Positions 1 through 54,817 of a stretch of DNA of 64,000 nucleotides are shown here, piece by piece. Source of the DNA: a virus. Both the position numbers and the translations under genes were made by a program. The stretch spans positions 24,142 to 88,141 of the IMG/VR virus record IMGVR_UViG_3300042474_001076; one strand, given 5' to 3'. The number at the start of each line of letters is the position of its first letter. Within the stretch, counting starts at the first letter, position 1. The notes beneath the pieces were generated by a model. It was not told the DNA's origin, ran no database searches, and saw nothing but the letters and a program-made list of their open reading frames with translations.

Positions 1-578
1 ATTATTCTTCTTTGTATATTAATTTCTTGCATTCTTAATAACATATCAAACGCTGGCATCATAAAGTAACTACCCGCCATGTTACCCATTTGAGTAAATC
101 CACCCGGTCCTCCTAATCCTCCACCGGCAATTCCACCAAAAGTCCACGGATCTATTAACGTATTATTTAATTCTGCGGGAGAAAACCACAGTAATTCGTT
201 AAGTTCTCTACACGCAGGTATTTCATATATTTGTTGGTTACCAACTAATTGAATGTAATCTTTCTTTAAAACATAGTCACCGCCAGCTTGTAATCCTACA
301 ATTTTAGAATAGGCATATGTGTATCTTGTTTCATAATCTAAACTTTTAGAGATAAATGCTTTTGCTAATGATTGTGTTTCAACATTTAAACCCCAAAGAT
401 TAGACCATTGTGATTCTATTAACCAATCTTGTATATATTGTGAATAATCATCAATAGAAAATTCTAACAATGTATCCATTTGTTCGTCTTCTAACTCAAC
501 ACTACGAAGAGGAGCACCTAATAGGTGACGAATTCTTGTATATAATTTACTTCTTTCTGGTTCTGAAATTATTGACAT
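1..578 (-). CDS. Neck / head-closure protein, T4 gp13-like (3' end outside window)
   Basis: The first 192 residues are visible, reading from 578 to the window edge. Residues 16-30 hold an IRHLLGAPLRSVEL stretch followed by DEQMDTLLEFSIDDY. From memory, this pattern (LGAP, then VEL, then an acidic DEQ-D helix) is the N-terminal signature of T4-type gp13 neck proteins. The C-terminal visible part is Gly/Met-rich (residues about 155-180), which also occurs in this family before a Y-x-M region. gp13 with gp14 closes the DNA-filled head and forms the site for tail docking. The gene is the last visible of the minus-strand block, and a TATTTATA element sits just upstream of the start. No alignment was possible here, so the gp13 assignment is by motif only. 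Confidence 0.6.
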   Translation of the reverse strand, partial: MSIISEPERSKLYTRIRHLLGAPLRSVELEDEQMDTLLEFSIDDYSQYIQDWLIESQWSNLWGLNVETQSLAKAFISKSLDYETRYTYAYSKIVGLQAGGDYVLKKDYIQLVGNQQIYEIPACRELNELLWFSPAELNNTLIDPWTFGGIAGGGLGGPGGFTQMGNMAGSYFMMPAFDMLLRMQEINIQRRI

Positions 579-598: not shown

Positions 599-1693
599 TT
601 ATTTTTTAGTTCTCAACAAATATAACTCATTAACAAATTCCCAATTTACATAATTCCAAAAATTTCTAATGTATTCATCTCTTTTATTTCTATATCTTAA
701 ATAATATGCGTGTTCCCAAACATCAAGACCTAATAAAGGATAACCACCGTCTTTAACAACACTCATCATTGGATTGTCTTGGTTGGGTGTTGACATTATT
801 TTTAAAGTATTTTTTTTTGTTAAAATTAACCAAACCCATCCAGATCCAAATCTATCTTTGGCGGTTTGATTAAATTCATCTTTCATTTTTTTTATATTAC
901 CATATTGTTTTGTGATCTCGTCAAATATTTCACCACTTGGTTTTTGTTTTTTTGGTGATAACATTTTCCAAAACAAAGCATGGTTAAATGCTCCTCCGGC
1001 ATTATTTCTAATTACCGTATCATATTTTCCAATAGATTTAACAATATCTTCTAACTCAACATCACCATAATCTTTTTTTGATAAAGCGTCATTTAATTTT
1101 TTAACATACCCTTTATAATGTTTATTATAATGAATGTTCATTGTTTCAGGGTCAACAAATTTATTTATTGATGAATATGAATAAGGTAGTTTATCAATAC
1201 CAATTTTTTTCATCTCTAATATAAAATTTTCACGTATATTTTCTTTTTCAGATAATATAATTTGTTCATTTATTAAATTTATTTTTTTTCCAATACCAAC
1301 TAAACCTTCATACATAAATTTTTCATATTTAGGGAAGTCACGTTCAAATTTTTTAATAACCGATCCGGCTTCAGAATTAGCTTCATCTTCATTTTGACCA
1401 CCAATATCTTGACCTCTTTCCATACCTTTAGTTGTTCGTTGCCATTCGTGTACCCATTCATGAGCCAATGTCCTACAAACATCACGATTTAATCGACCTT
1501 TAGTTAAAATTTTAAGTTCTGAATTTTCTGTTCTACTTCCAGTTGACATTTCACCATTTCTTTCCCCTAAAAACATAATTGTAATATTGTTTTTAATTGG
1601 GTATTTTTTTTGTAAATATTTTATAAAATCTTCCATTAAAGTTTTATCTTCTTTGGACATATCACATTTAATGTGTTTAATTGTTGCTTTCAT
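599..1693 (-). CDS. Zinc-peptidase-like domain fused to Fe/Mn superoxide dismutase
   Basis: Two domains are visible. Residues about 12-125 carry HExxH (H78, E79, H82) followed by EDEAN, where E104 is a plausible third zinc ligand; this arrangement resembles the IrrE/ImmA-type gluzincin peptidases. Residues about 168-362 are a complete iron/manganese superoxide dismutase, which converts superoxide to hydrogen peroxide and oxygen. Metal ligands are H188, H238, D324 and H328 (LDVWEHAYY). G234 and Q305 (NQDNP) fit the Mn-type arrangement. The linker is about 45 residues and shows no frameshift. The gene stands alone between a strong terminator and the gp13-like gene. The TATTTATA element ends only 4 bases before this ATG, so the ATG at 1660 (MSKEDKTL) could be the true start. 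No signal peptide is seen. SOD identity is near certain, while peptidase activity is inferred. Confidence 0.9.
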   Translation of the reverse strand: MKATIKHIKCDMSKEDKTLMEDFIKYLQKKYPIKNNITIMFLGERNGEMSTGSRTENSELKILTKGRLNRDVCRTLAHEWVHEWQRTTKGMERGQDIGGQNEDEANSEAGSVIKKFERDFPKYEKFMYEGLVGIGKKINLINEQIILSEKENIRENFILEMKKIGIDKLPYSYSSINKFVDPETMNIHYNKHYKGYVKKLNDALSKKDYGDVELEDIVKSIGKYDTVIRNNAGGAFNHALFWKMLSPKKQKPSGEIFDEITKQYGNIKKMKDEFNQTAKDRFGSGWVWLILTKKNTLKIMSTPNQDNPMMSVVKDGGYPLLGLDVWEHAYYLRYRNKRDEYIRNFWNYVNWEFVNELYLLRTKK

Positions 1694-2707: not shown

Positions 2708-3028
2708 TTATTTATTATAAATACACTTTGCTGTTTCAGTTGTAAGATTTGTATAATATCTAGCTTTATCAAAAAAGTCCATGTTTTTAGTTTTTTCGTC
2801 TATTATACTTTTAGCCCCTGCAAGACAACTTTTAAGATTTGTCATTGTTTGTCCTGATTCTGTATTTAATGTTTTACAAGAACTAATTTTTTCAAGGTCA
2901 GTTAACTTTAATTGTGATGCTGTTGCAACACACGATAAAACACCACCAATCTTTGAATTTTCTTCTCTTATTACTCGTCTAACAATACGAGCTAAATCAG
3001 ATTCCGTTAATCTTATTGTTTTTTTCAT
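2708..3028 (-). CDS. Small Cys protein with targeting-like N-terminus (paralogue B)
   Basis: A 106-residue protein of unknown family. The ATG at 3028 is chosen because it gives the N-terminus MKKTIRLTESDLARIVRR, matching paralogue A, and has the same 16-base spacing to the upstream element. The longer reading from 3064 would translate through that element. VIREE follows, again containing IxE. The mature part has four cysteines (SCVATAS, SSCKTL, SCLAGA, KCIYNK), and the first two align with the SC and TC of paralogue A. A DNA duplication of gene plus leader is the simplest origin, with later divergence of the mature region. Confidence 0.8.
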   Translation of the reverse strand: MKKTIRLTESDLARIVRRVIREENSKIGGVLSCVATASQLKLTDLEKISSCKTLNTESGQTMTNLKSCLAGAKSIIDEKTKNMDFFDKARYYTNLTTETAKCIYNK

Positions 3029-3069: not shown

Positions 3070-4878
3070 TTATCTTTTTTTATTTATAATGTCTAAAATT
3101 TCTTCAACAACGTCTCCACTATTCTCAGGATTTTCATCCCCCATTACAGTTCTGATAATTTTTTTTTTACGATTTAGGATATCATATATTGCTCCTTCAA
3201 TTGTGTTTTCATATAATGGATAATACACAAGTACATTAGATTTTTGACCATAACGATATGCTCGATCTTCTGCTTGAGCATGTTCTGCAGGAACAAAAGA
3301 TAAGTCATTCATAATAACAACCTCAGCGGCGGTCAAAGTTAAACCAACACCTGCAGCTTTTAAGTTACCAACAAATACTCTAATCTTTTCGTTATCTTGA
3401 AATTCATCAACAGCATGTTGACGATGAGGTTTAGAACAACTACCATCCAAATAAACCGCTTGTTTACCAAAATGTTGATAAATCGTTTGTAATGTGTCAG
3501 TAAAGTTTGTGAAGATAATAACCTTTTTACCTTGTTCAATAATATTTTCGGCAAACTCGATTGTTTGTTTTGTTTTTTCGTTTGAAATAACTTTTCTAAC
3601 TTTCATTAATTTAGAAAATTGAACAGTAAGAGAAGACGATTCATCTTTTTTATTATCAAACCAATTATAATATTCCCCCATCAGTTCTTCATATTCTTTT
3701 GATTTCAAACGAAGATATACAGGAGAAATAATTTTATCAGGAAGATCCAACACATCTTCTTTTAACCTACGAAGAATTTGTTTTGAAGTTCTATCTCTTA
3801 ATTCCTCCAAATTAGATGCTCCCGTTACATTCCAAACTTTTCTTCTACCTGCCATAAATTGATATCCTTGACAATAACGAATAGCGTAAGCCATCCAATT
3901 TTGAGCAACAGGAGATTCAATAATATTTAATAGGTTATAATAGTTCATTGGTCTAGAAGTCATTGGAGTTCCCGTTAATAACCAAACCCTTTTAATGTTT
4001 TTAACAAAATGATTTATGATTTTTGTTCTTTGTGCTTGAGGATTTGAGATCATGTGAGCTTCATCTAAAATAACAAGGTCAAAATTTGATTGATCTAATA
4101 AAGACTTATTTTTATCCGTTGTATTGTGAAAATTTTTTAGGATATCATAATTAACAATAACAAAATCAGATTCAGTTGAAAATTTCTTACCTTCCGAGAT
4201 ATAAACAGGTCTATCTGAATAATTTTCAATTTCACGTTGCCAGTTAATCTTTAATGATGCGGGACATATAATTAATATTTTTTTCGCACCAGTCTCTAAC
4301 GCAGCAATGATTGTACAAGTTGTTTTACCCAACCCCATATCATCAGCAAGAATAAATCTTCTTGATCCTGCTAATTTTTCTATTGCTTCTTTTTGATGTT
4401 GTAGTGGGGGTCTATGACTGTATTTAGAATAATCTACCTCAACTACCTCAACATTGTGAGTCTTTATTAATGATGATTTAGGAACCCAAAATTCTGTTAA
4501 AGGATCATTTTCAAAGAACTTACCCCAAATATGATACGATTTTTCTTTCTCAACTAATAATTTCTCAATGTAAATTTTTTCAGGAGTTTCCATAAAATAT
4601 CTTTCCTCAGCAAACTTCTTCGCAAAATAAGTATCAAGATCAACCCACTTACGAGCAACCTTAGGAACTGTGTCAAAATAATTTATAATGTAATCTGATT
4701 GAGTTCTTGTTGGGTAAAACTTTTTATTATTCTCTTTTTTGGTTTTTAGATACAATATATGATTATTGGCCCCCGAGTATGAGTCTAATAATTCTAACGC
4801 TTTATGTTCTATCAATGATTGATTAATATCCAAAATTCTCTTTTTATTAAAAATAACAATAAAAAAGATATTTATCAA
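3070..4878 (-). CDS. SNF2-type superfamily 2 DNA helicase/translocase
   Basis: The protein has all core SF2 motifs: Walker A in DDMGLGKTT (residues 179-187), DEAH at 272-275, motif III LTGTPMTSRP (301-310), and a C-terminal motif VI region QAEDRAYRYGQ. The closest pattern is the SNF2/SMARCAL1 class, which remodels DNA-protein complexes or anneals and migrates forks; in T4-like phages UvsW has a related role. There is no ATG before residue 96, so the start is uncertain. TTG at 4878, TTG at 4833 (with A-rich upstream sequence) and TTG at 4815 are all possible. The reading from 4878 runs through the TATTTATC element of the divergent plus-strand gene, so 4833 is attractive. It is divergently oriented to the gene at 4893. 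Confidence 0.9.
   Translation of the reverse strand: MINIFFIVIFNKKRILDINQSLIEHKALELLDSYSGANNHILYLKTKKENNKKFYPTRTQSDYIINYFDTVPKVARKWVDLDTYFAKKFAEERYFMETPEKIYIEKLLVEKEKSYHIWGKFFENDPLTEFWVPKSSLIKTHNVEVVEVDYSKYSHRPPLQHQKEAIEKLAGSRRFILADDMGLGKTTCTIIAALETGAKKILIICPASLKINWQREIENYSDRPVYISEGKKFSTESDFVIVNYDILKNFHNTTDKNKSLLDQSNFDLVILDEAHMISNPQAQRTKIINHFVKNIKRVWLLTGTPMTSRPMNYYNLLNIIESPVAQNWMAYAIRYCQGYQFMAGRRKVWNVTGASNLEELRDRTSKQILRRLKEDVLDLPDKIISPVYLRLKSKEYEELMGEYYNWFDNKKDESSSLTVQFSKLMKVRKVISNEKTKQTIEFAENIIEQGKKVIIFTNFTDTLQTIYQHFGKQAVYLDGSCSKPHRQHAVDEFQDNEKIRVFVGNLKAAGVGLTLTAAEVVIMNDLSFVPAEHAQAEDRAYRYGQKSNVLVYYPLYENTIEGAIYDILNRKKKIIRTVMGDENPENSGDVVEEILDIINKKR
4869..4876 (+). promoter_or_regulatory. TATTTATC element upstream of the connector gene
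   Basis: It lies 16 bases before the ATG at 4893 in the narrow divergent region and is the likely start of the plus-strand structural unit. Confidence 0.45.
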
Positions 4879-7189: not shown

Positions 7190-10100
7190 ATGGCAAACAG
7201 TAAAGTATTTGTATCGCCGGGAGTATACACTTCTGAAGTAGATTTAAGTTTCGTAGCACAAAGTGTTGGTGTTACAACCTTAGGTATTGCGGGAGAAACA
7301 TTAAAAGGACCCGCTTTTGAACCAATTTTTGTAAGAAATTACGATGAATTTCAAAACTATTTTGGGGGTACTTCACCCGAAAAATTTATTAACACACAAA
7401 TCCCTAAATATGAGGCGGCATACATTGCGAAATCATATTTACAACAATCTAATCAATTATTTGTAACAAGAATTTTAGGTCTTTCAGGTTATGATGCTGG
7501 ACCATCTTGGTCAATCTTAACTGAAGCAAATGTTAATTGTTCAACAATTGATGTTAATTGTTTTAGTTCAGTGACCGTAAATTGTGAACAACAATGTGTT
7601 ATTCCTTTGGAGTTACCATATTCTGTTGATTTTACGGGATGTACGGATTCAACTTCTAGTATTGAATATATGACACACTTCCCTCAGGAAATATTGGATT
7701 TATTGGATGTGAGTTATGAAACTCCACAAGGAGGAACATCAACTTTGGATAGTAATATAAAAGAATTAATTTTTAATGTAATAACAAATTCAAACCCATT
7801 AATTGCGGAAGACCAATATATTAGTTATTTTGGTAGTGTTGATGATAATGATTATAATGCGTTAACGGTTAATGGATCATACACCGCAACAACAAACGTT
7901 TATGGTGTACCGTCAATACCTTTTAGTGGAAATAATTTATGTGATGGAGCAAACACATCGTGGTATTATTCATTATTTGATAATGTTGGTGGCGGAAGTT
8001 ATACAGGATTCTCATTTTGGTCAATTGTTACTGGTGTAACTAATATTACTCCAATTACAACAACCACAACCGCACCAACAACAACATCAACAACAACCGA
8101 CCCTTGTGTTATTCCTGTTCCAACAACAACAACAACAACAACAAGTCCTATTCCTGTTGAGTGTTTTTCAGGATCAGTAATGGGCGTAATTTATTATTAT
8201 ACAGGAACATCATATACAGAATATGATGATATGGTTGTGGCAACATTTAGATCAAGAGGTATATCAACATATTCAAATGGTAATAACCCAATTTATGAAG
8301 TATCTAATTTGGCAGACGTAGTTTTAGATATGACAGGACAATATTCTGGTGTATTACAAAACCCATATCTACCATTTGGTGTTAATGTTACTAATAAAGA
8401 TGGTGTTAATTTTAACTTTGAAACGTCTTTTGCAACAAGTGACTCACAATATATAACAAAAGTTTTTGGTACGGATAATTTTGGTAAACCAAGAACAGTG
8501 GTTCCTTTATTTGTTGAAGAAAGGTTTCAGGCTTTATTAAACTATGGTTGGAGAAAAGGATTTATTAGAGGATTAAATCCAACATTAGTAGATTTAAATT
8601 CTGCACAAAGTAATGCTTCGGATTCTATTGGTTGGTATTTAGATAAATACCAAACACCAAGTTCTCCTTGGGTAGTATCTGAACTTAGGGGTACAAAAGT
8701 TTATAACCTATTTAAATTTTACACAATTTCAGATGGTGATTCAGCTAATTATGAAATAAAAATATCAATTGGTAATATTTCGTTTTCAAATCAAACATTT
8801 GATGTGTTTATTCGTGATTATTATGATACGGATTCAAATCCAGTTGTGATTGAGAAATTTACTAACTGTAGTATGGATCCAAGTCAAAATAATTTTATTG
8901 CAAAAAAGACAGGTTCATTAGATGGTGAATACCAACTTAATTCTAAATATGTTATGGTAGAAATGAATGAAGATGCTCCTGTTGATGCACTTCCTTGTGG
9001 TTTTGATGGGTTTAATTTTAGAACTTATGGTACCGCAACATCACCATTTCCTGTTTATAAAACAAAATACGATTTTCCTGGAGAAGTTATCTTTAATCCT
9101 CCATTTGGAACACCAATTCAAAGTGGTGGAGATAATGTTAGAAGAACCTATTTAGGTATTTCTAATAATAATAGTTGGGATGGTAATTATTTTGAATATA
9201 TTGGTAAACGAAATACAATCTCAACTTGTGATATTGAAAGTGTTGATTGGAATTATAAATCAAAAGGTTTCCACATGGATAAGGATGCTTCAGGAATAAC
9301 TATTTCAGATGCCTTTACAACATCAGGAACATCTAAATTTAATGTAGGGTCGGCAAATTTCTCATCTGAACCTAATAACCCAACAAGTCCTTATTATAGA
9401 ATTTATTCAAGAAAATTCACTTTATTAGTACAAGGAGGTTACGATGGTTGGGATATATATCGTGAACATAGAACTAACAGTGATAGATATGTTTTAGGAA
9501 GAACTGGTTATTTAAATGGAGCGTGTCCTGATAACAGATATCCAAATGCAGTTGGTTGGGGAGCATTCAAACAAATTGCTGTTGGTGATGGTACTCAAGA
9601 TTTTGCAAATACTGACTACTATGCTTATTTATTAGGAATTCAAACATTCTCTAATCCTGAAGCGGTTAACATTAATGTGTTTGTTTCACCGGGTATTGAT
9701 TATGTTAATAATAGTGACTTAGTTGAATCAACAATAGACATGATTGAAAATGAAAGAGCGGACTCACTTTATATTACAACAACTCCCGATTATAATATGT
9801 TTTTACCAACAACTACAGGTAATGATGGTATTATTTATCCTCAAGAAGCGGTAGATAATTTAGAAACAACAGGAATTGATTCTAACTATACCGCAACTTA
9901 TTATCCTTGGGTGTTAACTCGTGATAGTGTAAACAATACACAAATATATATACCGGCAACTGCTGAGGTAACTAGAAATTTAGCCTTAACAGATAATATT
10001 GCGTTCCCTTGGTTTGCAGCGGCAGGTTACACAAGAGGTATTGTAAACTCAATTAAAGCACGTAAAAAATTAACTCAAGAAGATAGAGACACTCTTTACC

Positions 10101-10501
10101 AAGGAAGAATTAATCCAATTGCAACCTTCTCTGATGTAGGAACCGTAATTTGGGGTAATAAAACTTTACAAGTAAGAGAGTCAGCTCTTGATAGAATTAA
10201 CGTGAGAAGATTGTTATTACAAGCTCGTAAATTAATCTCAGCAGTATCTGTAAGATTATTGTTTGATCAAAATGACGAACAAGTTAGACAAGACTTTTTA
10301 AACTCCGTAAATCCAATATTAGATGCTATTAGAAGAGATAGAGGTTTATATGATTTCCGAGTTACAGTTTCTTCTGACACAGCAGACTTAGATAGAAATC
10401 AAATGACAGGTAAAATTTATATTAAACCAACAAGATCCTTAGAATTTATAGATATTACATTCTATATAACACCAACTGGAGCATCATTTGAAGATATTTA
10501 A
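7190..10501 (+). CDS. gp18: Tail sheath protein (gp18-like), enlarged
   Basis: The N-terminus has the sheath signature SPGVYTSEVDLS (residues 9-20). The C-terminal 200 residues carry the conserved sheath core, including AYLLGIQTF, NVFVSPGIDY, ARKLISAVSVRLLFDQN and the final SLEFIDITFYITPTG. The protein polymerises around the tail tube and contracts at infection. At 1103 residues it is far longer than T4 gp18 (659). The extra length lies mainly between residues about 110 and 700 and includes a Thr-rich linker at 287-325 and several cysteines. Such insertions normally sit on the outer face of the sheath, so they are likely exposed on the virion. The start is fixed by homology, and no Shine-Dalgarno sequence is present (AAAAAAAGACA before ATG). 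A terminator follows directly. Confidence 0.93.
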   Translation: MANSKVFVSPGVYTSEVDLSFVAQSVGVTTLGIAGETLKGPAFEPIFVRNYDEFQNYFGGTSPEKFINTQIPKYEAAYIAKSYLQQSNQLFVTRILGLSGYDAGPSWSILTEANVNCSTIDVNCFSSVTVNCEQQCVIPLELPYSVDFTGCTDSTSSIEYMTHFPQEILDLLDVSYETPQGGTSTLDSNIKELIFNVITNSNPLIAEDQYISYFGSVDDNDYNALTVNGSYTATTNVYGVPSIPFSGNNLCDGANTSWYYSLFDNVGGGSYTGFSFWSIVTGVTNITPITTTTTAPTTTSTTTDPCVIPVPTTTTTTTSPIPVECFSGSVMGVIYYYTGTSYTEYDDMVVATFRSRGISTYSNGNNPIYEVSNLADVVLDMTGQYSGVLQNPYLPFGVNVTNKDGVNFNFETSFATSDSQYITKVFGTDNFGKPRTVVPLFVEERFQALLNYGWRKGFIRGLNPTLVDLNSAQSNASDSIGWYLDKYQTPSSPWVVSELRGTKVYNLFKFYTISDGDSANYEIKISIGNISFSNQTFDVFIRDYYDTDSNPVVIEKFTNCSMDPSQNNFIAKKTGSLDGEYQLNSKYVMVEMNEDAPVDALPCGFDGFNFRTYGTATSPFPVYKTKYDFPGEVIFNPPFGTPIQSGGDNVRRTYLGISNNNSWDGNYFEYIGKRNTISTCDIESVDWNYKSKGFHMDKDASGITISDAFTTSGTSKFNVGSANFSSEPNNPTSPYYRIYSRKFTLLVQGGYDGWDIYREHRTNSDRYVLGRTGYLNGACPDNRYPNAVGWGAFKQIAVGDGTQDFANTDYYAYLLGIQTFSNPEAVNINVFVSPGIDYVNNSDLVESTIDMIENERADSLYITTTPDYNMFLPTTTGNDGIIYPQEAVDNLETTGIDSNYTATYYPWVLTRDSVNNTQIYIPATAEVTRNLALTDNIAFPWFAAAGYTRGIVNSIKARKKLTQEDRDTLYQGRINPIATFSDVGTVIWGNKTLQVRESALDRINVRRLLLQARKLISAVSVRLLFDQNDEQVRQDFLNSVNPILDAIRRDRGLYDFRVTVSSDTADLDRNQMTGKIYIKPTRSLEFIDITFYITPTGASFEDI
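8055..8145 (+). repeat. ACA-type triplet repeats encoding Thr-rich linker in sheath
   Basis: Imperfect and perfect (CAA/ACA)n runs encode TTTTTAPTTTSTTT and PTTTTTTT, separated by a short Cys-containing stretch. The perfect run near 8122-8143 is a microsatellite whose length could vary in frame. Confidence 0.85.
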
Positions 10502-23400: not shown

Positions 23401-26400
23401 CCACAAATGAATTAAGTTATATTATATCAACAATTAAAAAATTTGGAGCAATACATAGATTACCACACGCTTGGATTTTAAAATATGGATCACTTTGGCA
23501 TAGATACAAAACTTGGGTTGAAACTGGAAATGATATTTTAACAGAAGTTTGGAACAATTTTAATTATTCTTATAATTACGACCCCGTTAATAGTGCAACA
23601 ACAAAATCTTATAATGTTACTATTGATGGTTCACCACAAGAAATTATATTAGAGGGTAATATAACAACAAATGTTCTTGGAATTAATTATGTAAAAACAA
23701 TTATTAATAATGGTTTTTACCCAAAAACAATAGATGATTTTAATGTTTTTTATCAAGGAAAAGTTGTTTTTGATAGTGTAGTACCAATTGGAGGTACTTG
23801 TGCAATAGTTAATGATAATGAATTAGAAGTACTAACAATAAATGGAGATGAAATTATTAGTGGAATGACACTATCTGGTACTTCATTACAATATGGTACA
23901 ACAATAGTTTCTCAGATAAGTGGAACAACTGGGGGTGTTGGTAGATATATAATAACCCCTAATCAATTACCAAATGGTACAACAATTACTTTAGATCTTC
24001 TTGGTCCAACATTTAATTTTATTTTGACTAATGTTAACGCTGTTGGATATGTCAGTTCGGAAATACAATCTGCATTAAATACAAACTTAGGAATGGTTAA
24101 AACAACTGGTTCTTTAATTAATAAATCTAATGGGTTTGATTTTCCTAATGTTACACGTTCATTAACATTAACGCCTTGGTCTTGTTATGTAAAAACAACT
24201 GATCAAACTTCTATTTACCCCCTTCCTTCATTTGGGGGAATAATAAATCAAACTAAAGATGAGTGTTTTAGAATAAATGGAACTATTAAAACAGAGGTTT
24301 CAGGAAATAACTCAATGTATAATGGTTCTGTAAGATTATTTTGGAAAGCACCAAATTATGGGTATTTCAATAATAATAAAGTCGTTCCCCCAAGTCCTGA
24401 CAGTTATTTAAAAGAAATTTATAATAGTGGTACAACACAACAAAATTTTTCAATAAATGGGGATATAGGTGATTACTCTAAATTGGATGAAATGTTTACA
24501 TCATTTGATAAAAATATTTTGGACATTTTAGAGATAGAGTTTTTAAATTTTGGTAGATCGGTATATGATTATGACACATTAATTACATCTGTAACAGGTG
24601 AAGAGACAGAAAGTGAAAAAATGTGTAAAAATTTCCAATTGTTAATGAGAACAATGATGAAAATTCCGGTACCAACAGCAACAAATGGTGACTCCATTGT
24701 TTCAGAAATACAAAATAGTCAAATTACCGCATTTAAATCTTATTTAACTAAATTTATGGATTATGAGGTTGTGATGAAATATGGTAACCCGTCAAACTTT
24801 GATAAAAAATTATTTTATACTTTTTCAAATAAATATATTGAGAATCCATATACATATCAAGGGTATAAACAATCATCACCAAACACTTTACCAACTGGAT
24901 TATTAAGTCCTGTTACTTTATTACAATCAAAAACAAATAATCCAGTTACTTGGAAAGCTTTAGAGACTTATGTTGGGTTTTCAGAAATACCCGAATTAAA
25001 ATATAAAAATAATGGATCATATATTACAGATTTTTTTATTGATTTAGATGTTCAATTTAATGAAAAAAATGTTATTCAGTTTGCTCCGATAATAAAAATT
25101 TATGCAACACAGAAACTTAAAAAAAATAATATAACTAAAATTGAGTTTTATACTTTAATGAATGATTATTTAAACAAAAATGAAGATTATATTGACACAG
25201 TACTTGATTTAGAATTAACAAGATTAAGAAATAAATTACCAAACGTAATAGTTACTCCTGATAGAAATAGTGTTAAATCTAATTTACAGGGAGAACAAAC
25301 AAGATATGAAATATGGGACACATTTAAATCTATAAATGACAAATTTATTTCAGGTAATGACTATAAAACAAAAACACTATTTGAAGACATTTTATTGTTC
25401 GATAGAGCAAGTAGAGATGTTGGTCAAAAAATATATGCTGACATTTTTAAAGTAAAAGAATTAATAGAATATGGTGACCATAATAATAAAATGGTGGACA
25501 TGGTAACAACTATTTTAACTCAAAATAATTTTACATACTTTACTATGCCGGCGTACGCTAATTTTTATAATGTACAAAACGTTAGTAAAAACCCAACACC
25601 AAATCCGGAAGGGACATTAGAGTTTGCAAATTCCTTATTTGGAACATTTTTAACATTAGATTATCGGGATACAACATCAAAATTTTTATGTTTATATGCC
25701 AATAAACCTAGTGAACATTTAGCCTTAAATGATAATGTGGATTATCGTTTTAGAGATGATGCTTTTGATTTAAGAAGATCAAGTGATAATCCATTACTTG
25801 ACAATTTAAACGGAAAAACAGATTGGGATAAATCAAATAAGGTTGTTGGTTTTAATGTTGATATTGGACCTCAAAATCAACAAATATTCAAACAATTTGA
25901 TATAAGTCAAGACCCTGGACTCCCAACAACAGAAAGTTTAGAAGTGTTAAATCAGATGGCGAATTTAAATAGAAACAGAAGTGAATCAACACAGAGCGTA
26001 TCTCTTTATAACTTATATAGAAATAGAAGTTATAAGTGTAGTATTGATATGTTAGGTAATGCAATGATTCAACCAATGATGTATTTTAACTTAAGAAACG
26101 TACCTATGTTTAGTGGTCCATATATGATTACGAAAGTTAGTCATAGAATAAGTGACAATGGTTTTGATACTGAGTTTGAAGGACAAAGACAACCATTTTA
26201 TAGTATTCCGGCAATAGATAAATTTTTACAATCGTTAAGTACCACAATATTATTATCAATTAAAGAACAAATAGAAAAAGATGAAACCGCTAAACTAGAT
26301 TCTCCCGAAAATATATTACAAGAACAAAATGATATTATTAACAATACAAATAATGGTAATGGTTCTTTAACCCCAAATCAAAATTGTTCGGACAATTTAA

Positions 26401-52300: not shown

Positions 52301-52367
52301 ATTGAATACCACCCAAAATTTTGAATTGAATGTGGGAATAAACTTTACTATCCTATGTAACCCATGA
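49350..52367 (+). CDS. Large baseplate/tail protein
   Basis: A 1005-residue protein. The segment FKSKGTRKSIEILLRMVGAP (residues about 450-470) resembles the core helix of P2 gpI-type baseplate proteins. The Trp/Tyr-rich second half contains WTQIIPKPKEKTFFEFAQTFWKNM, followed by a Cys-rich stretch, GCEIIPVPCKPCKL (about 840-853), that could bind metal. It overlaps the next gene by 4 bases (ATGA). It is probably the component that joins the baseplate to the adhesins that follow. The closest T4 counterpart is not clear. Confidence 0.65.
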   Translation: MATNKYKCPPQPASGQGTFSDNLVGFQLVDGGGFTQANFEFTTSISEKQDRTFSIGSFSEPISLDTLNISNIEESKKLIADNFRVYPNFDLSQVTNFTMFGSLTKRMSTSVTNIINYFPAALDINNVQTNFVISLTAQNIFYNSVEDETYFEIPISVIRNPFSIDYTVNATRNIELREISVSYLRNFTTQYLKYSLFLNDIEYPISDFIPAQVTDTVFKVYVNGDPFSGNTTTNSNFIIRPKQLYVNKVFNENLDQVENFLLNRNMVPIYSSYFNIPKENDDGQFYYTQEVAIFPLNGSWNLDIITPKFTNYLTKLNSLSESIDLYKTNLITRFLTADAIKEFDTSDQKIQKVLQIYGRSFDETRKFITALANMNSVNYNIKNDIPSQLLKNLAQTLGWNTNISPITNDQLLSSVFSNGSNSFTGLPIGQTPEELNYQYFRNLILNSAFLFKSKGTRKSIEILLRMVGAPEALTEFNEYIYLADQKINLRQFDIQYAQISGGTYSQELPVLDTNDLFSIMGVQYTGFTTTTITQDISLTNNDYPIDSYGFPSMPVPNDTYFFQIGGGWFESTPQHRMPEKVDLTNSVFTGSNPNYQTKLLPFNYGQEYLERYRSFPYMNLGFNLKKTVDNKKSWINNEKFLRKNFDGNFNAYYKVSDDRLVINVKNVDLFMNPSQGLVYDVWTMSRKYNYPIPEQGLSYIDPTYCNPYPNVEYPSRGGIDWTQIIPKPKEKTFFEFAQTFWKNMINVRNRQFNTDGKTSGYPTLSSIYWKYLESGMAINIPNDNFNYQTMIDYVNGMGDYWIRLVEQMIPATTIWNTGVKYENSIFHRQKFVWRRQRGCEIIPVPCKPCKLITQIFSYDCPIQQTVIGLYPWDTNPTITSFGALLGSSLTTYGNDNNLDINNDCLLNTLESDWYIDIRIDGSPIIIYPFFNGVGFSNPTLSTPTENNWVDSLYDSLTNLLDYGLSYTINTDDQTITIYNNNCLPLNTTQNFELNVGINFTILCNP

Positions 52368-54817
52368 GTTGTGGACAAATAATATATAATCTTTATATCT
52401 CTGGTGATTGTACTAATACTAATGTTGGAGAAATTTACATTGAGATAACTGGTGGTACTTCACCCTACACTGTATATGAAATTTCCTCAACAGGTTTATT
52501 ACCAACATCAGCATCCACAACAACTTATTATTTTAGTGGTATGTCTGCCGGCACATATAGTTTGGCAATCCAAGACTCGTGTATAAATCCAACTTTTGAT
52601 ACAATATACTTAAACATACCAATATCATCGGGAACATCTATAAGTGTTGAAAATGTAATAAATACAACTTGTGGTAATGATGATGGAGAAATAACATTTG
52701 GGTTTAATCCTTTTTATGGGTTTGGATCTGCATTGCTTTATGAAACAACAAACGGGTATATAAATAGTGGGTCAACACCAACTAGTGGAATAACCTTTTC
52801 AAATTTATCGGGAGGAACTTATTATATTGTTGGTGATGATGGTGCAGGGTGTAATGGAGTAAGTTCGAGCGTACCAATTTTATCATCAACAACTTTTTCT
52901 TACGGGTTTTATGTTGTTGACGATGCAAGTTGTAATGTTGCTTTTGGTTCGGGAAAAATATTTGTTACTGGACAAACAGGAGTTGGTCCTTATACATATG
53001 TTTGGAATGATGGACAAACAGGATCTACAGCAACTGGATTAACGGTTGGATATTACACTGTTACCGTAACAGATTCAAATGGATGTTCCGTTTCCGATAG
53101 TATTTCGGTTAATAATGTTCCGCCAATTGGAATATCTTCTTTTTTAACAACAGGAAGCACTTGTTTTAATAGTGATGGTGTGGTTGAAGTCACTGTTACT
53201 GGAGGGACAGCACCATTCTTTTTTTCTGGATCTAATGGGGATACAATAGTTACATTCTCAAACACATACACATTTCAAAATTTACCTTCAGGTATTTTAA
53301 CCGTTACTGTTAAAGATGCTGGATTATGTAGTGATACTCAATCAACTTCGTTAACAACACCCAATGGATTTACTATTTCATCAATTAACACAACAAATTC
53401 TAATTGTGGTAATAATGGGTCAATAACAATAGTTGTTAATACTGGATCCCCTACGGGAACATTTACCTATACGTTACTGAATTCTTCCGGAAATACGGTT
53501 AATACAACAACTGTTGGTACTAACACAACTTTTAATAATTTACAATCAGACACATATACAATTTTGATTGATAATAATTCAGGATGTGTTTATACTGGAA
53601 CCACAACAGTTACAAATGTTAATTTGTTTACAATAACTGCGGTTACAACTAATACCACATGTGGATTAAATAATGGTACCTTACAGATATTAACAACTAG
53701 TGGGGGTACATTACCATATACTTATCAAATTACTGGATACGCAATATCTCCAATTAATTTTTATAATAATTTACCTTTTGGGTTTTATAATGTTACCGTG
53801 ACCGATGCAAATGGTTGTTCACAAACAACAACAGCATATGTTGGACCATCAAATTCCGTATTTTTTAATTTATTTGCAATACAACCTGTTAATGGAAATG
53901 ATGGTGAAATAAGTTCTTTTTTAAGTAGTGGTTATCCACCTTTTACTTATAATTGGAGTTCAAATGTAAACTCACAAACTGGATCAACAGTAACTAATTT
54001 AAGTGCGGGAACATATACATTACAAGTTGTTGATAGTTCTGGATGTACACATACTAAATCAATTGTTTTATCAGGAACTATACTTTTAGGTAATTATCAA
54101 GTTTACAATATAAGTGACACTAATTTTGTTAATACTGGAATTGATGGTATGAGAGGAATAGGACAAATGTATAGTGAGGGATTTTTTGATTTAACATACA
54201 ATGATTTAGGGTGTGTAATTAATGGTGCAGAATTTATTATTGAAACAAGTGTAAATGGGGTGATAAAACAAAACTTATTTTATACCTCAATAGGACTTTA
54301 TGATTACCCAACAGATATTGAATGGATTAATATAATAAAATTAATGTTATTATCTTATCCGGATATTGGTGAAGTTGATATAGACATTGTTAAAAACAAA
54401 ATAACTATTGTGAATGATTGTGAAGACATCAATAAAAGTTGTGTACCAACTAAATTTAATACGTTATCTGATGCAAAAGTTGTAATTAATTTAATAATAA
54501 ATTATGATATTTCTTGTGTTGAATGTGATGTCCCTACACCAACACCATCCCAAACAAATACCCCAAATTTAACACCGACCCCAACACCGACCCCAACATT
54601 TGTAAATAAATGGATAGTTTCCGATTGTTGTGGATTAGTTTCAAATATTATTTTAATATTACCTTTAGGGACTATTGCGGGTCAATTATTAGTGTACAAT
54701 AGTAATTGTTGGACCACAGTTTCAACAACTAATGGTACGGCAGTTGGTACCGCAACCCCATTTCTTTTTTCCAGTAATTGTCCAACGTGTATAGCATCAT
54801 ATCCATGTAGTGGGTAA
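52364..54817 (+). CDS. Tail adhesin with about seven SprB-like repeats
   Basis: An 817-residue protein. Residues about 1-570 contain roughly seven repeats of 70-85 residues. Each has a Cys-x-(N/D)-x-(N/D)G start, then TGGTxPYTY, a GxYTVTVTDxNGC end and a strand. This is the SprB repeat pattern (PF13573) of gliding Bacteroidetes adhesins. A globular domain follows (about 580-720), then a Thr/Pro linker ([22 protein letters not shown], about 725-746) and a C-terminal Cys-rich tail (CIASYPCSG). It likely forms a fibre contacting the host surface. The start overlaps the previous gene. Confidence 0.8.
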   Translation: MSCGQIIYNLYISGDCTNTNVGEIYIEITGGTSPYTVYEISSTGLLPTSASTTTYYFSGMSAGTYSLAIQDSCINPTFDTIYLNIPISSGTSISVENVINTTCGNDDGEITFGFNPFYGFGSALLYETTNGYINSGSTPTSGITFSNLSGGTYYIVGDDGAGCNGVSSSVPILSSTTFSYGFYVVDDASCNVAFGSGKIFVTGQTGVGPYTYVWNDGQTGSTATGLTVGYYTVTVTDSNGCSVSDSISVNNVPPIGISSFLTTGSTCFNSDGVVEVTVTGGTAPFFFSGSNGDTIVTFSNTYTFQNLPSGILTVTVKDAGLCSDTQSTSLTTPNGFTISSINTTNSNCGNNGSITIVVNTGSPTGTFTYTLLNSSGNTVNTTTVGTNTTFNNLQSDTYTILIDNNSGCVYTGTTTVTNVNLFTITAVTTNTTCGLNNGTLQILTTSGGTLPYTYQITGYAISPINFYNNLPFGFYNVTVTDANGCSQTTTAYVGPSNSVFFNLFAIQPVNGNDGEISSFLSSGYPPFTYNWSSNVNSQTGSTVTNLSAGTYTLQVVDSSGCTHTKSIVLSGTILLGNYQVYNISDTNFVNTGIDGMRGIGQMYSEGFFDLTYNDLGCVINGAEFIIETSVNGVIKQNLFYTSIGLYDYPTDIEWINIIKLMLLSYPDIGEVDIDIVKNKITIVNDCEDINKSCVPTKFNTLSDAKVVINLIINYDISCVECDVPTPTPSQTNTPNLTPTPTPTPTFVNKWIVSDCCGLVSNIILILPLGTIAGQLLVYNSNCWTTVSTTNGTAVGTATPFLFSSNCPTCIASYPCSG

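Follow-up and report, generated by a model that had tools for sequence, protein, structure and literature searches.

Examination of the 64,000-nucleotide stretch of DNA considered here (positions 24,142 to 88,141 of IMG/VR virus record IMGVR_UViG_3300042474_001076; hereafter the window) revealed a single ORF at positions 599-1693, on the minus strand, that begins with ATG and encodes a protein of 364 amino acids. The protein comprises an N-terminal domain containing a HExxH motif (1313-1693, minus strand; residues 1-127), a linker (linker 1; 1208-1312, minus strand; residues 128-162), a complete Mn-type Fe/Mn superoxide dismutase (SOD) domain (620-1207, minus strand; residues 163-358) and a short C-terminal end (599-619, minus strand), the point at which relatives carry an exchangeable module. 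Downstream lies the next gene (1-578, minus strand), cut by the window edge and encoding a predicted head-tail connector (head-tail adaptor Ad2). Indeed, positions 5596-6720 of L083, another piece of the same record, match phrog_211 at 9.2e-11, and this family is found within five ORFs in 29 of the 33 loci considered. Upstream are two small ORFs at 2308-2661 and 2708-3028 (both minus strand), with the leaders MKKTIRLTEADLSKLIRRVIKE and MKKTIRLTESDLARIVRRVIRE, respectively, followed by a helicase (3070-4878, minus strand; phrog_62 DNA helicase, 4e-114), a family found within five ORFs in 33 of 33 loci. Elsewhere in the window, an unusually long tail sheath (7190-10501, plus strand; 1103 aa, phrog_23) contains threonine-rich tracts in its middle, while an ORF at 52364-54817 (plus strand) contains SprB repeats (PF13573, 1.6e-21, five stretches).

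To verify the assignment of the ORF product, the sequence was compared with Pfam profiles and PDB sequences. Both SOD domains scored far above cut-off (Sod_Fe_C, 4.6e-39, and Sod_Fe_N, 1.3e-20; 133 and 74.1 bits against cut-offs of 20.9 and 27), spanning residues 166-356. Of 161 PDB sequences matched at E<=0.001, the 60 listed cover only the SOD part and none covers the N domain, the best (9.4e-60) being the manganese SOD 6gsc, with 5a9g and 1gv3 among the others. The four metal ligands (H188, H238, D324, and H328) and the manganese-type Gln of the NQDNP motif (Q305), as well as H78, H82, and E104, are positioned as given in the preliminary description of this ORF, to which E79 and E102 are added here. 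The observation of a SOD fused to a zinc-peptidase-like domain was thus confirmed, although that description mentioned neither the strand nor the fact that the window protein lacks the C-terminal extension of most of the relatives retained.

The identity of the N-terminal domain was less readily defined. No Pfam family reached its cut-off in this part of the window protein, with the closest, Peptidase_M91, remaining below threshold (E 0.039, 14.7 bits, and 17.3 bits in a second search, against a cut-off of 25). Peptidase_M78 matched 4 of 20 N domains only weakly (best E 0.045), PHROGs returned nothing convincing, and a PDB search by sequence gave a single chance match (E 0.34). M91 membership is as such not supported, and an IrrE/ImmA identity is not established. 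An AlphaFold2 model from 52 sequences (pLDDT 88.8, pTM 0.85), of low confidence from residue 132 to the end of the modeled piece at residue 138, shows a small sheet, a helix bearing HExxH (HEWVH; 1448-1462, minus strand; residues 78-82) and a following helix bearing EDEA (1379-1390, minus strand; residues 102-105), with E102 or E104 being the candidate third zinc ligand. The 50 rows of a VIA structural comparison are YbeY-type proteins and metallopeptidases, namely, 1oz9 (Z 9.5, rmsd 2.6, 108 aligned), M1 aminopeptidases (Z 8 to 9.0), and Wss1 (Z 8.1). By contrast, Foldseek alone gave nothing at E<=0.001 (best E 0.039; IrrE at rank 4, E 0.045), with unrelated proteins further down. The domain is thus predicted to be a zincin in general terms, a fold match not being an indication of activity.

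To determine whether the fusion is widely distributed, IMG/VR was searched by sequence pattern. Of 209 matched stretches, 208 encode a relative, of which the best 80, at 66-100% identity, were retained. In 80 of 80, the open frame runs through the N domain and the SOD. This excludes an assembly chimera or annotation artifact, despite the metagenomic origin of the sequence, and the absence of the fusion from all related genomes, set beforehand as the outcome that would overturn the observation, was not encountered. The metal ligands of both halves and Q305 are invariant in an alignment of 24 sequences, while H78, E79, W80, and H82, invariant in that same alignment, are also invariant, together with E102, E104, and A105, in 52 sequences. 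Among 108 distinct full-length ORFs, chosen by two SOD motifs (one of which holds Q305, such that this residue is not tested there), the His and Asp ligand motifs are intact except for the first histidine motif of one N-truncated ORF (L266), with two others (L186 and L213) differing only in that a Tyr two residues after the last His is Phe. Of 103 ORFs selected by HEW(V/I)H, 103 contain E(D/N)EA behind it. Comparison of the window gene with three relatives gave dN/dS values of 0.08-0.14 in the N domain, 0.06-0.10 in the SOD, and 0.08-0.11 in the linker, although some dS values are near or above 1. That the SOD fold is retained merely as a structural or metal-binding scaffold, which would also suit fusion to exchangeable modules, is considered very unlikely given the invariant ligands and Gln and the low dN/dS, although enzymatic activity itself is inferred.

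The earlier remark that SODs are uncommon in phages fits the present results, since among 50,697 phage records the whole protein matched only 29, none covering 80% of the query. Some of these, including unannotated records of Staphylococcus, Listeria, Salmonella, and other phages, may be host DNA in phage assemblies, while PA5oct-like Pseudomonas jumbo phages encode a diverged SOD-like protein (28.9% identity), annotated as hypothetical in 9 of 11 records. In the same collection, the N domain gave one weak match, a stand-alone protein (gp332; L292:3836-4210, plus strand) of Synechococcus phage B23, listed with a Synechococcus host (E 1e-4, 40% over 45% of the query). A scan of 84,980 genomes gave 15 relatives, matched from residue 144 on at the earliest, although both patterns used come from the SOD region and so cannot exclude the fusion in bacteria. 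The best of these, from a Fluviicola MAG (49%), together with the SprB repeats, hints at a Bacteroidota host.

Examination of the relatives revealed the window protein to be the short form. Of the 80, 27 stop after the SOD, whereas 53 continue for more than 40 further residues, reaching up to 958 aa, into one of four unrelated C-terminal modules, designated A (22), B (20), C (8), and D (3), with three of these reading frames running off the contig end. The 108 distinct full-length ORFs comprise 32 N-SOD-A, 32 N-SOD-B, 23 N-SOD, 7 N-SOD-D, 4 N-SOD-C, 3 N-SOD-D-B, 1 N-SOD-D-D-B, 2 SOD-B'-A, 2 SOD-B'-B, 1 unassigned, and 1 truncated, these classes being approximate, as they rely on short motifs, and the set being biased by its selection for SOD motifs and by the searches with A and B. 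N domains also occur alone, as 129-aa proteins at 9 loci (4 distinct proteins), with no SOD found in those 9 records, which may, however, be fragments. Near one such gene lies a 622-aa ORF that begins like DnaK/Hsp70 (L118:9704-11572, minus strand). Of the four distinct proteins, two end in MYE, one in MYK, and one in LYQ, at the place of the conserved E129 of the fused proteins, such that E129 is not a convincing cleavage site.

Pfam and PHROGs returned nothing convincing for modules A-D, of which C and D have no assignment. A model of B'+A from L215, one of the relatives lacking the N domain, was considered (pLDDT 75.9; mostly 80-96 per block in the A half, lower in B'). An alignment combining B', A, and B rows placed the B rows over A and was discarded, with an alignment lacking B rows used instead. 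The 50 VIA rows are all restriction endonucleases or Holliday junction resolvases by title, most of them PD-(D/E)XK enzymes, although this is less certain for the two top rows. Residues about 330-590 (A) match the Eco15I N-terminal domain (Z 9.3, rmsd 5.6, 141 aligned), NhoI (9.1), 3ndh (8.7), and then HinP1I, MspI, PvuII, and EcoRV, while residues 164-294 (B') match an archaeal Hjc (Z 6.3, rmsd 4.2, 108 aligned). Z-scores in this range can be background, and Foldseek gave nothing at E<=0.001, its first row (0.0038) being an unrelated photoreceptor. Conserved motifs agree, namely, RGxDFE..SPYD..SCK in A (D109..K121) and GQD..QVKP in B (D173..K188). PD-(D/E)XK is thus the favored, although not proven, reading for A, and a weaker one for B', and for B, where it relies on sequence motifs. 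Among the 50,697 phage records, module A (from the relative L226) matched one uncultured phage and module B (from L057) none.

The possibility that the modules are exchanged as cassettes was next considered by aligning four pairs of loci as DNA. L207 (A) and L273 (B) are 89.7% identical over 2.8 kb up to the linker and 86.9% identical over 3.5 kb from just behind the stop codon, with no blastn match in between. The same was seen for L027 (A) and L242, the contig of the B-type L047 (flanks 83, 82, and 77%), and for L113 (B) and L048 (C; 81 and 83%), while L138 (D) and L059 (no module; 78-80%) show presence or absence of a cassette. In each of the four pairs tried, the borders were sharp. On a tree of 52 N+SOD cores, the module label needs at least 17 changes (shuffled mean 29.7), although this tree relied on a short search with SH-aLRT support only and the count cannot distinguish gain from loss.

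The linkers were next examined. In T4, the prohead protease gp21 cuts after L/I-X-E, and the propeptides of internal proteins are capsid targeting sequences (PMC9026906). Among 52 representatives (85% identity), (I/L)xE occurs 173 times in linker 1 (77.7 expected upon shuffling each linker's own letters) and 86 times in linker 2 (26.5 expected), but only 36 times in N domains (80 expected), 65 times in SODs (82 expected), and 202 times in C-terminal bodies (206 expected), corresponding to 9.50, 5.84, 0.60, and 0.65 per 100 residues in linker 1, linker 2, N domains, and SODs, respectively. The narrower motif (I/L)(N/T/S)E occurs 83 times in linker 1 (13.4 expected) and 45 times in linker 2 (6.1 expected), as compared to 3 and 2 times in the N and SOD bodies. 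At least one (I/L)xE is found in 52 of 52 linkers 1 and 46 of 46 linkers 2, while the controls (I/L)xD, (I/L)xK, and (F/Y/W)xE are not enriched in linkers. Still, the motif is short, such shuffling ignores relatedness, and the C-terminal module bodies show a mild excess of (I/L)(N/T/S)E (61 against 41). In the window protein, linker 1 contains four candidate sites (the slash marks the putative cut), namely, LINE/Q (E143; 1265-1267, minus strand; conserved in at least 90% of the 24 sequences), ILSE/K (E149; 1247-1249, minus strand), NIRE/N (E155; 1229-1231, minus strand), and, directly before the SOD domain, FILE/M (E160; 1214-1216, minus strand; invariant in the 24).

Sequences lacking the fusion partner carry similar motifs. 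In the four representatives without the N domain (L215, L222, L283, and L285), the SOD starts after LITE/A or ILSE/A at the E160 position, such that the peptidase domain is not needed for this leader. Stand-alone A genes begin with leaders ending in ILNE or LLNE, while a D module found alone starts MKIIITENQYKLIKE/NISLKEKL, the same block following PLNE/SISLKEKL when fused behind the SOD. By contrast, the window protein and other members with the N domain have no conserved cleavable N-terminal leader (MKATIKHIK... in the window protein). The earlier interpretation was as such only partly supported, in that the fusion of a Fe/Mn SOD to a zinc-peptidase-like domain in a phage holds, whereas the idea that the peptidase part directs the SOD to a virion site is replaced by a mechanism with more evidence, namely, prohead-protease-type sites in the linkers.

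These findings also bear on the possibility that the zincin domain processes the chain in cis, in the virion or after injection. Zincin is the commonest domain of polyvalent proteins and is proposed to process them (Iyer et al., 2017; PMC5512222), and the constant pairing of HEW(V/I)H with E(D/N)EA, together with the zincin-like model, is consistent with such a role. However, the persistence of (I/L)xE leaders and linkers in the four representatives lacking the N domain, and the existence of this domain as a separate gene, speak against self-processing, which is considered unlikely.

To determine whether these phages encode a suitable protease, 18 records (17 relatives and the window's own) were searched. 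Prohead protease PF03420 and capsid protein gp23 (PF07068) are above cut-off in the same 10 of 18. In 4 of 6 capsid loci examined, the N-terminus reads FLINE/AT with the Glu at residue 60, the other two not having been recovered. For comparison, T4 gp23 loses 65 N-terminal residues (PMC9958956). The window's own 88-kb record holds neither gene, nor any match to modules A-D, and is taken to be a fragment.

It is proposed that the window protein is the short form of a modular head-cargo polyprotein of large T4-like phages known from metagenomes. In this view, the zincin domain, the SOD and, in most retained relatives, one to three further modules would be translated as one chain and taken into the prohead, where the gp21-type protease would cut at (I/L)xE sites in the linkers, with the freed enzymes remaining in the capsid with the DNA and entering the host with it. 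There, the SOD would remove superoxide early in infection or in the particle, while the nuclease-like modules of relatives would act on DNA (host, rival phage, or plasmid). Domain order, conserved catalytic residues, purifying selection, module exchange at the linker, enrichment of the protease motif in linkers, and the presence of the protease and a matching capsid site in relatives all come directly from the sequences analyzed, whereas packaging, cleavage, injection, superoxide dismutation and other enzyme activity, and benefit to the phage are inferred. This reading, with which the connector gene next door is also in line, is held only as slightly more likely than not. The main alternative, that the protein is an ordinary intracellular fusion enzyme, made during infection and never packaged, with linkers that are merely flexible, remains possible, if less likely. 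It is in line with the SOD matches lacking the N domain in other phages, such as the PA5oct-like phages, with the location of the gene by the helicase as well as by the connector, and with packaging being inferred from sequence alone. Yet, it does not explain why linkers of unrelated modules keep (I/L)xE while control motifs are not enriched, or why stand-alone modules carry leaders ending in the same motif.

Several known systems share aspects of this proposal. The T4 internal head proteins IPI-IPIII and Alt are taken into the prohead and trimmed by gp21 after L/I-X-E, with many internal proteins and Alt being ejected into the host, where IPI blocks a host nuclease (PMC9958956; PMC9026906). 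T4 proteins, however, lose a terminal propeptide (Alt also a C-terminal one), while here two to five modules share one chain with sites between them, and no SOD is mentioned among T4 internal proteins in the text considered. Polyvalent proteins are multidomain, have zincin as a hub domain, are compared to polyproteins, and are thought to be delivered on invasion (PMC5512222). The long forms described here combine predicted zincin, SOD, and nuclease-like modules, the window form only zincin and SOD; yet, the modules here are joined by prohead-type sites and the word superoxide does not occur in the main text of that paper (the string sod occurs once). Giant Salmonella phage SPN3US and phiKZ contain many head proteins, some processed by a prohead protease and ejected, although with other cleavage motifs (AXE, SXE) and proteins, and with no SOD noted (PMC5694885). 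Finally, a SOD is listed among virion-packaged enzymes against redox stress in giant eukaryotic viruses (PMC9405923), these being other viruses, the cited structure a Cu,Zn-SOD, and no fusion being mentioned. SOD, zincin, nuclease folds, prohead protease processing, and multidomain injected proteins are thus already known; what appears new is a SOD-centered phage polyprotein with swappable modules and prohead-type linkers, no description of which was found in literature searches limited to the listed entries of open-licence papers. The likeness to T4 internal and polyvalent proteins is one of mechanism, with membership not claimed.

Similar leaders were also seen elsewhere. In the 296-kb record of one relative (G001; pieces L157-L172), as in the two small ORFs upstream of the window gene, small ORFs share leaders such as MKK(I/T)IRLTESDLTRIVKRVIKE and MKIIITENQYKLIKE, with 27 of 347 G001 ORFs fitting a loose leader pattern. 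In G001, 57 of 347 ORFs contain (I/L)(N/T/S)E within residues 2-28 (24 expected), as compared to 33 (21 expected) within residues 29-55 and 33 (22 expected) within a C-terminal stretch, which fits a general leader system. The D module is an expanded family in this record, with 14 tblastn places (e.g., L169:10757-14620) detected with the copy from L042 as query, six of them clustered around the SOD gene and one of these being the fused copy. However, a 593-aa ORF with an RLTE-type leader (L162:17660-19441, plus strand; G001 112660-114441) ends in a peptidoglycan-binding domain and is endolysin-like, such that targeting to the head is not the only reading. A more far-reaching and doubtful possibility, not excluded by the evidence, is that these phages run a general plug-in system for loading enzymes into capsids, with many proteins carrying interchangeable leaders ending in (I/L)xE (RLTESDL..RVIKE, IIITExQYKLIKE, and others) and the polyprotein built around SOD fusing such modules end to end through the same sites, such that nuclease or unknown modules can be swapped as cassettes and an antioxidant, a protease, and a nuclease delivered together into the host. 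If so, unknown injected effectors of these phages could be read off their genomes by leader and linker.

The long forms bring together a putative peptidase, a SOD, and a nuclease-like module, for which the most economical explanation is cargo that must arrive with the DNA, as with T4 IPI. Respiratory superoxide in an injured cell, a defense burst, or damage to stored virions are all possible sources of the superoxide met by the SOD, although this step is inference. If the proposal is true, this would be a phage carrying a SOD as injected head cargo, with cargo enzymes strung together as a polyprotein to be cut by the capsid protease, of which no other case is known to us. It would provide a sequence rule, namely, a leader or linker (I/L)xE, for finding injected effectors in large T4-like phages with mostly unannotated genes, and would make superoxide a testable factor in the first minutes of infection.
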